Shown here one piece after another: positions 2,584-8,864 of a DNA stretch of 64,000 nt (within the stretch, counting starts at the first letter, position 1; every line of letters starts with the position of its first letter). The notes under the pieces were generated by a model. It searched no databases and had not been told where the DNA came from. It saw only the letters and a list, made by a program, of their open reading frames with translations. The stretch comes from an uncultured Ignavibacteriota bacterium (GTDB lineage: Bacteria; Bacteroidota; Ignavibacteria; Palsa-1295): positions 124,001-188,000 of the forward strand of contig CAIUMP010000004.1 in assembly GCA_903900335.1 (NCBI GenBank), read 5' to 3'. The translations under genes and the position numbers were made by a program.

Positions 2584-3972
2584 ATGAACAATCTAAAGCA
2601 ATTTTGTTTAGTCGCGCTCGCCTGCCTGACCTTCGCGTCAGGCGCGCGAGCCCAATCCTTCGCGTCTGGGAGCAATGCTCAATATCGGTGGCGAGCTGTC
2701 CACCCCTCGCGTGTGGGAGATCGTAGCTTTGCATTTACAGCTTTGTCGTGCAAAGGCGAGACCTGTAGTGCTGCCGCACTTGTGGTTGATCATAGCCAGG
2801 CCCCGTGGTCAATTCGGATTATATTCTTCCGGAGTGTTGATGGTGGCCAATCGTGGGTGGAACAGGACGCAGGTCTTCAACTAACCACTACTAACATGCA
2901 AATCAGAGACATTCAGCAGATCGATTCCATGAATGCCGTGGCAGTCGGGGATAGCGGGCTCTTCTTTCGAACAACGGACGGGGGTGGGACGTGGGTCAGA
3001 TCAAACTTCACAAACCGCAATCTGTTCAACGCTCACTTTTCCGACCCAAGCACAGGAATCGCGATTGCGAATTTGGATACGAACGTCTTTACCACTACAG
3101 ATGGTGGCAAGCATTGGAGTGGCTTTATCTTTCCCGAAATATTGTGGCCCATCCGCGGGCATTCTTATGGGGCTGGGAAGTTTAGAGTTATTACATACTA
3201 CGCCGGTCCACTTTACACGACGTTCGACGGATTTAAGACCGTGGATACTTCCTGGCTTTATCCGATGGCCGATACCATCCACGGAATCACCGACTGTAAT
3301 TTCGGTCCAGGTGAAAATATGGTTGCCTATGGTGTTCTATCCGTGAATAGAAAGAACAACTACTCGGAATTAACCCGCTCGCCCGATGGGGGCAAGAACT
3401 GGACAGAAATTTTGCTAAGCGATAGCGCCGTACCGTATTTGACGGTGATGTCTTCCTTGGAAGAGAACCCCGTCTTTGTCGGTGGGATGGGACGCGCTAA
3501 GATTCTGAGAAGTGATGATCACGGGCTAACCTGGCGTCCCGACACGACAATATTCGTGAATGACACGGGGACCTATGCCTTAACTTCGAATTCATACGTG
3601 AGGAGTGTGGCCGTTACGCATTCAGGTCACCCTGTCGCGTGCTTTTCAGGTTGGCTTAATGGTTCTGACGGTATGCTCATGCGTGGAGAATTTGCCCCCA
3701 TGAGTGTCGAGGCATACGAGCGTATCGTCTATAACACCTACCTCTATCCCAACCCTGCAACTCAGAAAGTAACCGTTACCTCCATCGACCAATCCCGCCC
3801 CGTTCATATCATTGATGTGTTAGGGAGAGAGGTGCTGCGCGGCGAACTCGACTCGCGGGGCCAGGCCACGTTTGATGTATCCTCCCTGCCTCGCGGCATC
3901 TACGCCGTCATGCTCGATCATTTCGGGCGGCTACTTTCGGTTGGGAAGGTGGCGGTGGTTGCGAAGGAGTGA
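2584..3972 (+). CDS. Asp-box (BNR/YCF48-like) repeat protein with T9SS sorting domain, tandem paralogue
   Basis: A 462-residue paralogue of the preceding gene, starting 29 bp after its stop. The signal peptide ends at ARA-Q near residue 23. Asp-boxes such as SVDGGQSW, TTDGGGTW, TTDGGKHW, SPDGGKNW and SDDHGLTW predict a beta-propeller. The C-terminal ~85 residues are a T9SS type A sorting domain ending KVAVVAKE. The propeller halves of the two paralogues have clearly diverged, but the sorting domains are almost identical even at DNA level, including a 58-base exact match (2391-2448 against 3808-3865). It is likely secreted and surface-attached. The binding partner is unknown. Confidence 0.85.
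   Translation: MNNLKQFCLVALACLTFASGARAQSFASGSNAQYRWRAVHPSRVGDRSFAFTALSCKGETCSAAALVVDHSQAPWSIRIIFFRSVDGGQSWVEQDAGLQLTTTNMQIRDIQQIDSMNAVAVGDSGLFFRTTDGGGTWVRSNFTNRNLFNAHFSDPSTGIAIANLDTNVFTTTDGGKHWSGFIFPEILWPIRGHSYGAGKFRVITYYAGPLYTTFDGFKTVDTSWLYPMADTIHGITDCNFGPGENMVAYGVLSVNRKNNYSELTRSPDGGKNWTEILLSDSAVPYLTVMSSLEENPVFVGGMGRAKILRSDDHGLTWRPDTTIFVNDTGTYALTSNSYVRSVAVTHSGHPVACFSGWLNGSDGMLMRGEFAPMSVEAYERIVYNTYLYPNPATQKVTVTSIDQSRPVHIIDVLGREVLRGELDSRGQATFDVSSLPRGIYAVMLDHFGRLLSVGKVAVVAKE
2616..2651 (+). other. Hairpin inside signal-peptide codons (BNR paralogue 2)
   Basis: Arms at 2616-2630 and 2637-2651 pair with 13 Watson-Crick pairs, one G-U and one mismatch around a CTTCGC loop. It lies at the end of the signal-peptide codons, aligned with the hairpin at 1183-1208. 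The shared core is CCTGAC...GTCAGG, and the next pair out is T-A in one copy and G-C in the other. Confidence 0.55.
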
Positions 3973-5253: not shown

Positions 5254-6927
5254 ATGGACCGACGCGAATTTCTATTCTTATCAAAGCGCGATAGCGCTTC
5301 CCGCACTGGCGCTCCTCGCCCCATTGATGAGCCGCTGCAAACCCAATCCAATGATCTGACGCCCTACAACGGCACCTGGGACGACGCTCATTTGCGTCAT
5401 CTGCTCCGCCGCTCGATGTTCGGCGTTCCGCCAGCACAGTTTCAGGCAGCGAAAGCGCTGGGTGGAATGCCGGCCGTTGTCGCAAAGCTACTGGAGTGTT
5501 CGGATACCACGAAAGTACCGTTGCCTGCGCAGCCTTCTCCCTATATGACGTTCGCGGATACCTTCTATGTCAAGGGTGATACCCAGGTTACCTCCAGCAA
5601 CAAGGCCCGCCTTGACACCATGCGCAGCCAGGAGCTTGTGAACTGGTGGTTCGATCTCATGATGAAAGAGAATCTCTCCCTCCGCGAGAAGATGACACTC
5701 TTTTGGACCAACCACTTTGTGACCGGCACGCAGACCGTCAATCGAAACGGTTATATGTACACCTATCTTCAGACGTGCCGCGCTAATGCGCTTGGTAATT
5801 TCAAAAGCTTCACCCGAGCTATTGCCACGGACCCCGCGATGCTCGTGTATCTGAACGGAAATCAGAATTACAAGATAGGCAACTCCAGCTACATCAACGA
5901 GAATTTCGCCCGCGAGGTGATGGAGTTGTTCACGCTTGGCATCAACGATCCAAAGACGGGACTGCCGAACTATACCGAGACGGATATTCAAAACTCCGCG
6001 CGTGCACTCACCGGATGGCAGCCTACCGTCACGCCGCCATTCGTCGGTGTGCTCTGGGACGGGACCAACGGAACGAAGAACTACCACGATTCTGGTACGA
6101 AGACATTCCTCGGCCAAACTGGCAACTTTGGATTGACGGAGATCATCGACATCATCTTCTCGCAAGGCACTCCCGCAGGCTATACCGCTGCCTATTTCTT
6201 ATGCTCGAAGTTGTATGCCAACTTCGTCTATTACGTGCCGAACCCACAAGTCGTTGATGCAATGGCGACGTTGATGGTTGCGAACAGTTTCGAGATCGCT
6301 CCGGTGATGCAGGCGCTCCTTATGAGCGATCACTTCTATGATGTCAGCGTGATCGGTGCGCAACTCAAGAGCCCTGTGGAATACGTGGGCAGCCTGGTGC
6401 GCGAATTTGGCTTGACCTACCCCGCCTGGGATGGGACTGACCCTGTCGGTAAGACGCCCGACGTCAACGGCAATATCCAATACACGGATATGAATCCAAC
6501 TCTCACACTAATTACCTCATCCATCCTCTCCTCCTCCCAAGGGCAGCAACTGCTGAACCCGCCGAACGTAAAAGGCTGGCCAGGCGGACATAACTGGATC
6601 TCGACGGGGACTTTCCAGGGAAGGGAGAATCAGACGAATCAGATCCTGAACAATGGCTACATCAACGCCAAGCAGAATTGGAATTTGAGTTTTAGTCCTG
6701 ATATCTACGCTAATCAAATTCCGAATGCGCAAAGCCTTTCTTCGAGTGCGCTGAGTCAAGCATTGGAGGACACTTCCCTCGCTTTCACGTTGGGGCCAGT
6801 GGAGTCAGGCGATTTGAAGAAGGACATCTCAAAAACCTATCCCGATCCCAATTACAAGTACAACGCGGCAGATGTGAAGGGATTTGCGATGTATCTCGCA
6901 AGTTTGCCGGAATTCCAATTGATCTAA
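5254..6927 (+). CDS. DUF1800 family protein
   Basis: A 557-residue DUF1800 protein. Typical features are HLLRRSMFG near residue 50, the KMTLFWTNHFVTG block, FAREVMELFTLGI with YTETDIQNSARALTGW, and a late NPPNVKGWPGGHNW motif. The family has no settled biochemical role. It is routinely encoded beside DUF1501 proteins, as here (gap of 21 bp). The N-terminus reads MDRREFLFLS, which resembles a twin-arginine motif, but charged and polar residues follow instead of a hydrophobic stretch, so no functional signal peptide is visible. No T9SS domain is present. It may be a partner of the exported DUF1501 protein. Confidence 0.88.
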   Translation: MDRREFLFLSKRDSASRTGAPRPIDEPLQTQSNDLTPYNGTWDDAHLRHLLRRSMFGVPPAQFQAAKALGGMPAVVAKLLECSDTTKVPLPAQPSPYMTFADTFYVKGDTQVTSSNKARLDTMRSQELVNWWFDLMMKENLSLREKMTLFWTNHFVTGTQTVNRNGYMYTYLQTCRANALGNFKSFTRAIATDPAMLVYLNGNQNYKIGNSSYINENFAREVMELFTLGINDPKTGLPNYTETDIQNSARALTGWQPTVTPPFVGVLWDGTNGTKNYHDSGTKTFLGQTGNFGLTEIIDIIFSQGTPAGYTAAYFLCSKLYANFVYYVPNPQVVDAMATLMVANSFEIAPVMQALLMSDHFYDVSVIGAQLKSPVEYVGSLVREFGLTYPAWDGTDPVGKTPDVNGNIQYTDMNPTLTLITSSILSSSQGQQLLNPPNVKGWPGGHNWISTGTFQGRENQTNQILNNGYINAKQNWNLSFSPDIYANQIPNAQSLSSSALSQALEDTSLAFTLGPVESGDLKKDISKTYPDPNYKYNAADVKGFAMYLASLPEFQLI

Positions 6928-6932
6928 ATTTT

Positions 6933-6938
6933 AAGGAG
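6933..6938 (+). promoter_or_regulatory. Shine-Dalgarno site of the DUF1501 gene
   Basis: AAGGAG lies 10 bases before the ATG at 6949. It is one of the few strong Shine-Dalgarno sequences in the window and fixes the start of the DUF1501 gene, supporting the Tat-type N-terminus described there. Confidence 0.65.
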
Positions 6939-6948
6939 AAGAGATAGT

Positions 6949-8565
6949 ATGAAACGTCGTGACTTCTTAAAAACAGGTGTGAAGATTGGCATTGCTGCCA
7001 ATGCGCTGCCGATGCTCTTGAACGGCTCCCCAGTCCGTGCGCTTGGCCGCTCGCCACTGCGTAAGGTATTGGAAGCATCGGGTACCAGCAATAACAATGT
7101 GCTCGTCATCATTCAGCTTCAGGGTGGGAATGATGGGCTGAACTGTGTTATCCCGTACACCGACCCACTCTATGCATCGCTTCGCCCAACGCTGAAGCTC
7201 GACCCGACAACGGTGCTGAAGTTGAACGGTAATAGCACCCTCGCGCTTCATCCGAATATGATCGGCATGAACAATCTGTTTACGAACGGGAAGCTCGCCA
7301 TTCTTCAAAACGTCGGTTACCCAAGTTCAAGTCTGTCGCACTTTCGTGGCACGGACATCTGGAATACAGCTACGGATAGCAGCATCTATTCCTCCACCGG
7401 CTGGGTGGGGCGCTTGCTGCTCGAACAAAATCCGGGATACCCACCAAGTTCTATCCCAACGGGAAGTCAGCCGCTCGCCATACAATTCGGCAACTCACTG
7501 AGCAATCTCTTCCTTGCACAGACTGGTGGAATGGGAATCGCGATCAGCCGGGTCCCAACCGTGTCGAATACGAGCAGCCACAATTACGACCCGATTCCGT
7601 CCAGCCCCACAACGCCTTATAAGGAGCTTCAATATGTGAGGATCATTCAGTCAGAGACGGAGATCTATTCGCAGACGATCGCTAACCGCAAAGTCACCAC
7701 GAACAAGGCGACCTATCCAAGCGGAAATCTTGCGTTGCAGCTTTCAAGTGTTGCGCAGATGATCGCAAGTGGATTTCAGACGAAGATCTACATGGTCACG
7801 CAGGGTAGCTACGATACCCACTCAGGACAGCTCACGGGCCAAGGGACGCTGCTCGGAGATCTCTCTGCAGCAGTGGCAGCGTTCCAGCAGGATATTGAGG
7901 CCTTCGGAGTTGCCGATCAGGTTGCTATGATGACCTACTCGGAGTTTGGCCGACGCCCTCAAGAGAACGGCTCCGGCACAGATCATGGCACGGCGGCGCC
8001 GCTCTTCGTGATGGGCACGCAGGTCAAAGGTGCCGTGTATGGAAATGATCCATCGCTGAAGCCAGCGGATCTGGTCTCGAACAATTTGAAGTATGATCCT
8101 CTGCACGACTTCCGGAACATCTACGCAACCGTAATGAACGAGTGGCTGCTTTCCGGTGGCGATCAGACGCAGGTGAACAATGATATTAAGTCTGTACTTA
8201 CGTCGGATGCGAGCGGGACATACTCGAAGACATCCGCGTGGCAGTCGCTTGGTATCTTCAAAGCGTCTCAGCAGGGATATGTTGCGTCGAATCCTGACGC
8301 TGCGGGGCTCATGTTAATGCAGAATTATCCGAACCCTTCTCGAGCAACAACTACGATAGAGTTCGCCTTGCCCGCGCCTGGCGCTGTTGAATTGGGAGTC
8401 TTCAACACTGCCGGTGTGGAGGTTGCTCGCATCGCTGATGGGAGGATGGAGGAAGGAATTCATCGAGAGGAATTCGATGCAAGTCGATTACCAAACGGGG
8501 CCTATTTCTATCGCTTGAGGACCGACGCCGGCGAGGTGACGCGACAGATGATCGTCGAACATTGA
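6949..8565 (+). CDS. DUF1501 family protein with Tat-type signal and T9SS sorting domain
   Basis: A 538-residue DUF1501 protein, a family related to alkaline-phosphatase/sulfatase folds. Family blocks include VLVIIQLQGGNDGLN near residue 50, SHFRGTDIW, YDTHSGQL and MTYSEFGRRPQENGSGTDHGTAAP. The N-terminus is a textbook Tat signal: KRRDFLKTG, a hydrophobic stretch to about residue 26, then a break near SPVRALG. The C-terminal ~85 residues (MLMQNYPNPSRATTTIEF to the end) are a T9SS type A sorting domain with an LPNGAYFYRL turn. Tat export plus T9SS transport in one chain is unusual, because known T9SS cargo enters the periplasm by Sec. It follows its DUF1800 partner by 21 bp and has a strong Shine-Dalgarno site. 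Confidence 0.9.
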   Translation: MKRRDFLKTGVKIGIAANALPMLLNGSPVRALGRSPLRKVLEASGTSNNNVLVIIQLQGGNDGLNCVIPYTDPLYASLRPTLKLDPTTVLKLNGNSTLALHPNMIGMNNLFTNGKLAILQNVGYPSSSLSHFRGTDIWNTATDSSIYSSTGWVGRLLLEQNPGYPPSSIPTGSQPLAIQFGNSLSNLFLAQTGGMGIAISRVPTVSNTSSHNYDPIPSSPTTPYKELQYVRIIQSETEIYSQTIANRKVTTNKATYPSGNLALQLSSVAQMIASGFQTKIYMVTQGSYDTHSGQLTGQGTLLGDLSAAVAAFQQDIEAFGVADQVAMMTYSEFGRRPQENGSGTDHGTAAPLFVMGTQVKGAVYGNDPSLKPADLVSNNLKYDPLHDFRNIYATVMNEWLLSGGDQTQVNNDIKSVLTSDASGTYSKTSAWQSLGIFKASQQGYVASNPDAAGLMLMQNYPNPSRATTTIEFALPAPGAVELGVFNTAGVEVARIADGRMEEGIHREEFDASRLPNGAYFYRLRTDAGEVTRQMIVEH

Positions 8566-8572
8566 GCGAGCG

Positions 8573-8597
8573 TAGGGACGTACGGAGTACGTCCCTA
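8573..8597. repeat. TAGGGACGT palindrome between convergent genes
   Basis: Perfect 11-bp arms TAGGGACGTAC and GTACGTCCCTA around GGA. It fills the 29-bp gap between the DUF1501 gene and the convergent glutaredoxin-like gene. It resembles the palindromes at 55439-55459 and 55501-55521. It may serve as a bidirectional terminator, but there is no clear T-run. Confidence 0.6.
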
Positions 8598-8864
8598 TGC
8601 CCAGAATTTCCACGCTGGCTTCGGCTTGAGCTTGCGGATCAGCATGTCGCGCGTCGTTCGGTGCTGGAAGGCCTCCTTGCCATTGATCATGATGACCGGG
8701 ATCTTGTCCCAATACTTGTTCCATAGCTCGTCACCTAACCGGATCTTGACGATCTCCAGATCGAAATCCACATAGTCCATTGCGGACTGCACCTCTTCGA
8801 AAGCGTCATCACATAGCCCGCAACCACCTTCCTTCGTGATGAATTGTACGACTGGCTTGGGCAT
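8595..8864 (-). CDS. Glutaredoxin-like thiol-disulfide protein
   Basis: An 89-residue cytoplasmic protein of the glutaredoxin-like (DUF836-type) family. The redox motif CGLC is at residues 15-18 after a short first strand, and the cis-Pro loop is KIPVIMINGKEAF. A C-terminal helix completes a thioredoxin fold of usual length for the family. Its ATG overlaps the stop of the upstream DUF4397 gene (TGATG on the minus strand), so the two are likely translated together. It probably reduces or senses disulfides; the substrate is unknown. Confidence 0.82.
   Translation of the reverse strand: MPKPVVQFITKEGGCGLCDDAFEEVQSAMDYVDFDLEIVKIRLGDELWNKYWDKIPVIMINGKEAFQHRTTRDMLIRKLKPKPAWKFWA

Follow-up and report, generated by a model that had tools for sequence, protein, structure and literature searches.

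How does a protein leave the cell when its first residues resemble those of a Tat substrate and its last domain resembles the sorting domain of a T9SS cargo? The question is raised by one gene of the DUF1501 family in the window, by which we mean the whole stretch of 64,000 nucleotides analysed here, from an uncultured Ignavibacteriota bacterium. In reviews, Sec is given as the route by which T9SS cargo enters the periplasm (PMC5445135, PMC9127263, PMC9251779), and in the open-access literature, where absence is not proof, we found neither a description of Tat-delivered T9SS cargo nor a paper linking DUF1501 with T9SS. The reading we prefer, with a probability of roughly 80%, is that the DUF1501 protein is a T9SS cargo with Tat as its route across the inner membrane. 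The features of the locus are the following.

5254..6927, + strand: DUF1800 protein, 557 aa, first gene of a two-gene operon (PF08811, 310 bits)
5254..5277, + strand: MDRREFLF, a twin-arginine n-region without a following h-region, read from the sequence as a vestigial Tat signal
6933..6939, + strand: likely ribosome-binding site AAGGAGA, 9 nt upstream of the DUF1501 ATG (sequence)
6949..8565, + strand: DUF1501 protein, 538 aa, with predicted Tat signal and T9SS type A sorting domain (ORF translation, profile matches)
6949..7047, + strand: predicted Tat signal peptide, aa 1-33 (MKRRDFLK...VRALG), with its precise cleavage site uncertain (motif, hydrophobicity, conservation)
6952..6972, + strand: twin-arginine motif KRRDFLK, aa 2-8, its first R and its F nearly invariant in 83 homologues
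7096..8208, + strand: predicted catalytic core, aa ~50-420, with an alkaline-phosphatase/sulfatase superfamily fold (AlphaFold2, Foldseek)
7132..7134, + strand: D62, putative metal ligand in GGNDG, invariant in 83 sequences
7336..7341, + strand: S130-H131, putative nucleophile/ligand pair, invariant in 83 sequences
7813..7821, + strand: D289-T-H291, putative metal ligands, with D289 and H291 invariant in 83 sequences
7981..7986, + strand: D345-H346, putative metal ligands, invariant in 83 sequences
8326..8556, + strand: T9SS type A sorting domain (CTD), aa 460-536 (TIGR04183, PF18962)

The protein matches the Pfam profile PF07394 (DUF1501) at 78.1 bits, above the cut-off of 27, and its N-terminus (MKRRDFLKTGVKIGIAANALPMLLNGSPVRALGRSP) opens with MKRRDFLK. 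The original prediction had described a KRRDFLKTG start and a type A sorting domain at the other end, and both are borne out, the former by the ORF translation and by the family N-termini considered below, and the latter by TIGR04183, which the C-terminus passes with 37.8 bits (E 1.4e-9) against a cut-off of 23. PF18962 likewise matches there (31.9 bits, cut-off 27). In the AlphaFold2 model of the protein (pLDDT 86) the core is confident, the sorting domain forms a separate beta domain with pLDDT above 90, and residues 8-41 are disordered (pLDDT below 50). The two ends are best read, from sequence, as a Tat signal and a T9SS sorting domain.

A scan for homologues, with one genome per species, gave 80 loci, from which four Verrucomicrobiota lacking a sorting domain were set aside; the remaining 76 relatives, which come from Bacteroidota, Ignavibacteriota, Chlorobiota, Rhodothermota and Balneolota, were combined with the window protein and two paralogues into a comparison set of 79. 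The pairing suggested for the single protein recurs throughout this survey: among 78 readable N-termini the motif pair is RR in 68, RK in 6 and something else in 4, and TIGR04183 is matched by 77 of the 83 proteins in the survey alignment, which includes the three DUF1501 copies of the source genome. By sequence, a Tat start combined with a sorting domain is the standard architecture of DUF1501 proteins in T9SS lineages and no oddity of one protein.

Outside these lineages, DUF1501 proteins without a sorting domain also have a Tat-like start, as we saw in Verrucomicrobiota, on plasmids of Pseudomonadota and Actinomycetota, in Persicobacter and in other Bacteroidota; a twin-arginine motif in DUF1501 was noted by earlier authors (PMC5122149). 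A tree built on the core groups all 79 rows of the T9SS lineages together (SH-aLRT 98), and the sole intruder without a sorting domain (L235) sits on a long branch whose position is unsure. Judged from these sequences, a single gain of the sorting domain by an ancestrally Tat-exported DUF1501 protein is the most likely origin of the architecture. As a side observation, one locus with a DUF1501 gene (L110) belongs to a record titled Akkermansia muciniphila, a species said to be without a DUF1501 module (PMC4960237), and the name of this MAG may be wrong.

The source genome (4.0 Mb) encodes the machinery that both export steps would use: TatC, two TatA/B-type genes, and SprA as a single frame of 2468 aa (TIGR04189, 772 bits), together with at least 150 sorting-domain matches. 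It also has three DUF1501 genes, which start MKRRDFLK, MKRRDFIK and MKRRTFIQ and end in the sorting-domain pattern YPNP...G.Y..L, so that all three carry both the twin-arginine start and the C-terminal pattern. TatC was found in 47 of 50 homologue genomes. (The three genomes without it, L083, L093 and L114, have a DUF1501 protein with RR and may be incomplete MAGs.) In the phylum as a whole, TatC is present in 246 of 247 genomes and DUF1501 in 114 of 247; since TatC is nearly universal there, its co-occurrence with DUF1501 has no power as a test.

Other sorting-domain proteins encoded in this genome provide a comparison for the signal itself. The best 150 of 277 sorting-domain candidates gave 142 places, of which 133 have a clear signal; weaker candidates, for example the sorting domain of the C44 DUF1501 paralogue, lie outside this census. 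We used two measures, picked after the sequences had been viewed but each based on a property that is published or generally known. The first is the hydrophobicity of the best 12-residue stretch of the signal. For the window protein this is 1.85, below 131 of the 133 other cargo proteins, and the mean is 1.52 for 76 DUF1501 homologues versus 2.65 for the 133 (Mann-Whitney p 4e-32). As a yardstick, E. coli Tat signals gave 1.71 and Sec signals 2.31, and the weakly hydrophobic DUF1501 signals resemble the Tat signals in this respect. The second measure concerns the cleavage site. Sec/SPI substrates of Bacteroidetes tend to carry a glutamine directly after it, the "Q-rule" (PMC5837995), and [AGS]-Q is present in 113 of the 133 other sorting-domain proteins (85%) versus 17 of 78 DUF1501 signals, where it mostly lies away from a plausible cleavage site. 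No A-Q site of the Sec type was found in the window signal. The other sorting-domain proteins of this genome therefore look Sec-delivered by their signal sequences. Six of them fit a loose RRx[FLIVM] motif, but all six have strongly hydrophobic, Sec-like stretches, so none was counted as a second Tat-T9SS family.

A reason for using Tat could lie in the fold of the protein. Foldseek comparison of the model with the PDB returned sulfatases (choline sulfatase), LtaS and others (best E 2.4e-6, most near 1e-5, probability 0.99-1.00); the TM-scores are low, as the comparison used entire chains that include extra domains. A PDB search by sequence found no significant relative of the window protein; a 28-residue chain named CueO that aligned to the signal region was discarded as not significant (E 0.46). 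Seven residues (D62, S130, H131, D289, H291, D345 and H346) are invariant in the 83 sequences and look similar to the superfamily's set of metal ligands and nucleophile. Sequence and model together suggest that the protein is probably a surface metal enzyme, and we infer from the conserved residues that its core may bind metal; an enzymatic activity is likewise predicted.

The route we propose would then run as follows. The metalloenzyme-like domain would fold, and probably acquire its metal, in the cytoplasm; TatA and TatC would export the folded protein by means of its RRxFLK signal; and the sorting domain would be recognised, so that the protein, still folded, could reach the cell surface or the medium by way of the SprA translocon. 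In evolutionary terms, the sorting domain would have been added once to a protein that was already exported by Tat. The original prediction had further argued that T9SS may accept a folded, perhaps cofactor-bearing substrate. A metal-bearing folded enzyme is indeed plausible here, given the fold and the conserved D and H ligands. However, folded cargo is already known: folded proteins are held to pass T9SS through the SprA pore (Lauber 2018, as cited in PMC9251779), and sfGFP with a Sec signal and a sorting domain is secreted (PMC9127263). This part of the argument carries no new implication, since it is already accepted that T9SS exports folded proteins. What is new, by sequence, is a T9SS cargo family that appears to enter the periplasm by Tat.

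The operon suggests a second possible reason for Tat, which the earlier reading had missed, namely co-export of a complex with the signal-less DUF1800 partner. In 80 of 82 homologous loci DUF1800 lies beside DUF1501 on the same strand (in L002 and L004 both genes are on the minus strand), with a gap of 21 nt in the window and a median of 14 nt over 75 loci. The window DUF1800 protein has neither a sorting domain nor a hydrophobic signal region, the hydrophobicity after its RR motif being -0.23. A signal-like hydrophobic stretch is absent from 62 of 69 complete DUF1800 proteins, and no sorting-domain pattern was seen in those homologue DUF1800 C-termini that were inspected. Nevertheless, a remnant of a Tat signal seems to persist: R[RK]x[FLM] occurs at residues 2-8 in 14 of 80 DUF1800 proteins and in all three copies of the source genome, against an interior rate of 0.2%. 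The C60 paralogue has a full Tat signal (MDRRSFLRTAGSAAGAAALL), unlike the C44 paralogue (MNRRSFLAPWNTAK) and the window copy, and in L037, a close relative, DUF1800 carries a full Tat signal, the hydrophobic part of which the window copy has lost. In Pseudomonadota the partner sometimes carries a signal of Sec or lipoprotein type, and so its place there is outside the inner membrane.

Two further observations on DUF1800 may be recorded. RRxF[LF] at the very start without a hydrophobic region is seen in the window and in L055, L056, L063, L067, L109 and L254. The protein (window 5254-6927; also L253 and L254) has a confident AlphaFold2 model (pLDDT 86, pTM 0.89), which found no match below E 0.45 among PDB folds, and it may represent an undescribed fold.

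By analogy with Tat hitchhiker complexes, these patterns suggest that the signal-less DUF1800 protein is carried out by DUF1501. Tat would then be used chiefly because DUF1501 leaves preassembled with its partner, and the complex might continue through T9SS on the sorting domain of DUF1501. This explanation extends the Tat-T9SS reading rather than opposing it. The conserved adjacency, the missing signals and sorting domains, the RRxFL start without an h-region in many DUF1800 proteins (including two of the three genome copies, the third having the full signal) and the exported partners of Pseudomonadota all speak for it, and such export is documented elsewhere, for E. coli PaoABC and hydrogenase 2 (PMC4273604). 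On the other hand, the complex is itself putative, DUF1800 could simply act in the cytoplasm, and a clade with a degenerate twin arginine, discussed next, also has a signal-less DUF1800. If that clade uses Sec, hitchhiking fails there, which argues against hitchhiking as a universal rule. We therefore hold the explanation tentatively, with the odds somewhat against it, and regard as rather doubtful the more specific claim that an assembled DUF1501-DUF1800 enzyme complex passes first Tat and then the T9SS outer-membrane pore by means of a single Tat signal and a single sorting domain, which DUF1501 supplies. If true, such two-step export of a folded complex would be a route not described for T9SS.

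A less probable explanation is that the N-terminus is a plain Sec signal whose basic n-region happens to read RRxFL, and that DUF1501 is a conventional T9SS cargo, as would accord with the reviews that give Sec as the delivery route (PMC9127263, PMC5445135). Consistent with this, the window protein has no match at E<=1 to either of two short Tat profiles, TIGR01409 and PF10518. These do match other family members weakly (19 and 14 of 83, respectively), and in the genome scan the C60 DUF1501 paralogue reached 15.8 bits against a Tat-profile cut-off of 16.7. Family members with RS, RA, RH or RQ in place of the twin arginine, some of them with A-Q sites, also favour Sec. In the tree, seven rows of Spirosoma/Cytophagaceae type (L071, L087, L090, L042, L045, L076 and L115) form one clade in which the second arginine is degenerate and the sorting domain is retained. 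An A-[YF]-[AG]-Q site occurs in 3 of these 7 (L071, L087 and L090) versus 1 of 71 elsewhere (p 0.002), and from sequence the clade may be switching naturally from Tat to Sec. Since hydrophobicity stays low in rows without RR (mean 1.67, nine checked), such a move is only a suggestion. Because the clade retains its sorting domain and three of its members have an A-Q site, the architecture does not strictly depend on Tat; and if the clade is moving to Sec, the outer-membrane step would be independent of the inner-membrane route. The clade offers a ready natural comparison. For the family at large, however, the low hydrophobicity, the missing A-Q site and the RR or RK pair in 74 of 78 N-termini weigh against a Sec signal. 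So do the basic residues near the signal end, which are commoner in DUF1501 than in other cargo (43 of 78 versus 25 of 133 by a loose c-region motif), and the presence of the same motif in DUF1501 relatives outside the T9SS lineages, so that we consider this explanation unlikely. (A stricter measure of Sec avoidance, basic residues within 7 aa before the predicted cut, was dropped, as the cleavage guess is unreliable.)

That the sorting domain is vestigial and DUF1501 stays periplasmic after Tat export is very improbable, because the domain scores above the curated cut-off, 77 of 83 proteins match it and several phyla have retained it, even though 2 of the 79 T9SS-lineage rows (L105 and L116) lack a recognisable sorting domain and have a different domain at this end. 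In these two proteins (L105:4001-5521 and L116:3233-4786) the replacement is a short domain of the form GxW...TWxxGRVP...GHxVTL, which no Pfam profile matches and which may serve for sorting or anchoring instead.

Elsewhere in the window, two adjacent BNR/Ycf48-like repeat proteins (1113-2555 and 2584-3972) have nearly identical sorting domains on diverged bodies, which suggests, by sequence, that the sorting domain was recently duplicated or converted. Directly downstream of DUF1501, on the opposite strand, lies a glutaredoxin-like ORF of 89 aa with a GCGLCDD motif (8595-8864, - strand), which adjoins a DUF4397 protein whose LQSC start resembles that of a lipoprotein.

Returning to Tat delivery followed by T9SS export, the pairing of the two signals is real and conserved, and is apparently undescribed; dependence on Tat and secretion by T9SS are what it predicts. 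A Tat-type start on T9SS cargo suggests that the two export steps are freely combinable, and the DUF1501 family would supply natural folded substrates of a cofactor type with which to probe how large or how assembled T9SS cargo may be. In the case of the DUF1501-DUF1800 pair, export as a complex is directly testable and would help to assign a function to two large families.

Compared with known systems, the DUF1501 protein shares with T9SS type A cargo (TIGR04183, Por_Secre_tail; for example the gingipains) the Ig-like C-terminal sorting domain, scoring above the curated cut-off, and a host that likewise has SprA and about 150 or more sorting-domain proteins; it differs in its Tat-type signal, whereas the type A cargo described so far enters by Sec. 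With the Tat substrates CueO and SufI it has in common the RRxFLK motif, a weakly hydrophobic h-region, a basic c-region residue and a predicted folded enzyme of metal type, but those proteins stay periplasmic, and DUF1501 has a sorting domain for further export. Its core shares the fold of the alkaline-phosphatase/sulfatase superfamily (LtaS, choline sulfatase) and has a putative ligand pattern, D, S/H, D-x-H, D-H, like that of the superfamily, from which it differs in having only about 10% identity to it. DUF1501-DUF1800 pairs (PF07394, PF08811) of Pseudomonadota, Verrucomicrobiota and Actinomycetota show the same gene order and a Tat-type DUF1501 start but, unlike the window pair, no T9SS sorting domain. 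Finally, as in the Tat hitchhikers PaoABC and HybOC of E. coli, one member of the window pair has a Tat signal and its operon partner has none; the putative complex of the window pair would add to such hitchhiking a step of T9SS export.
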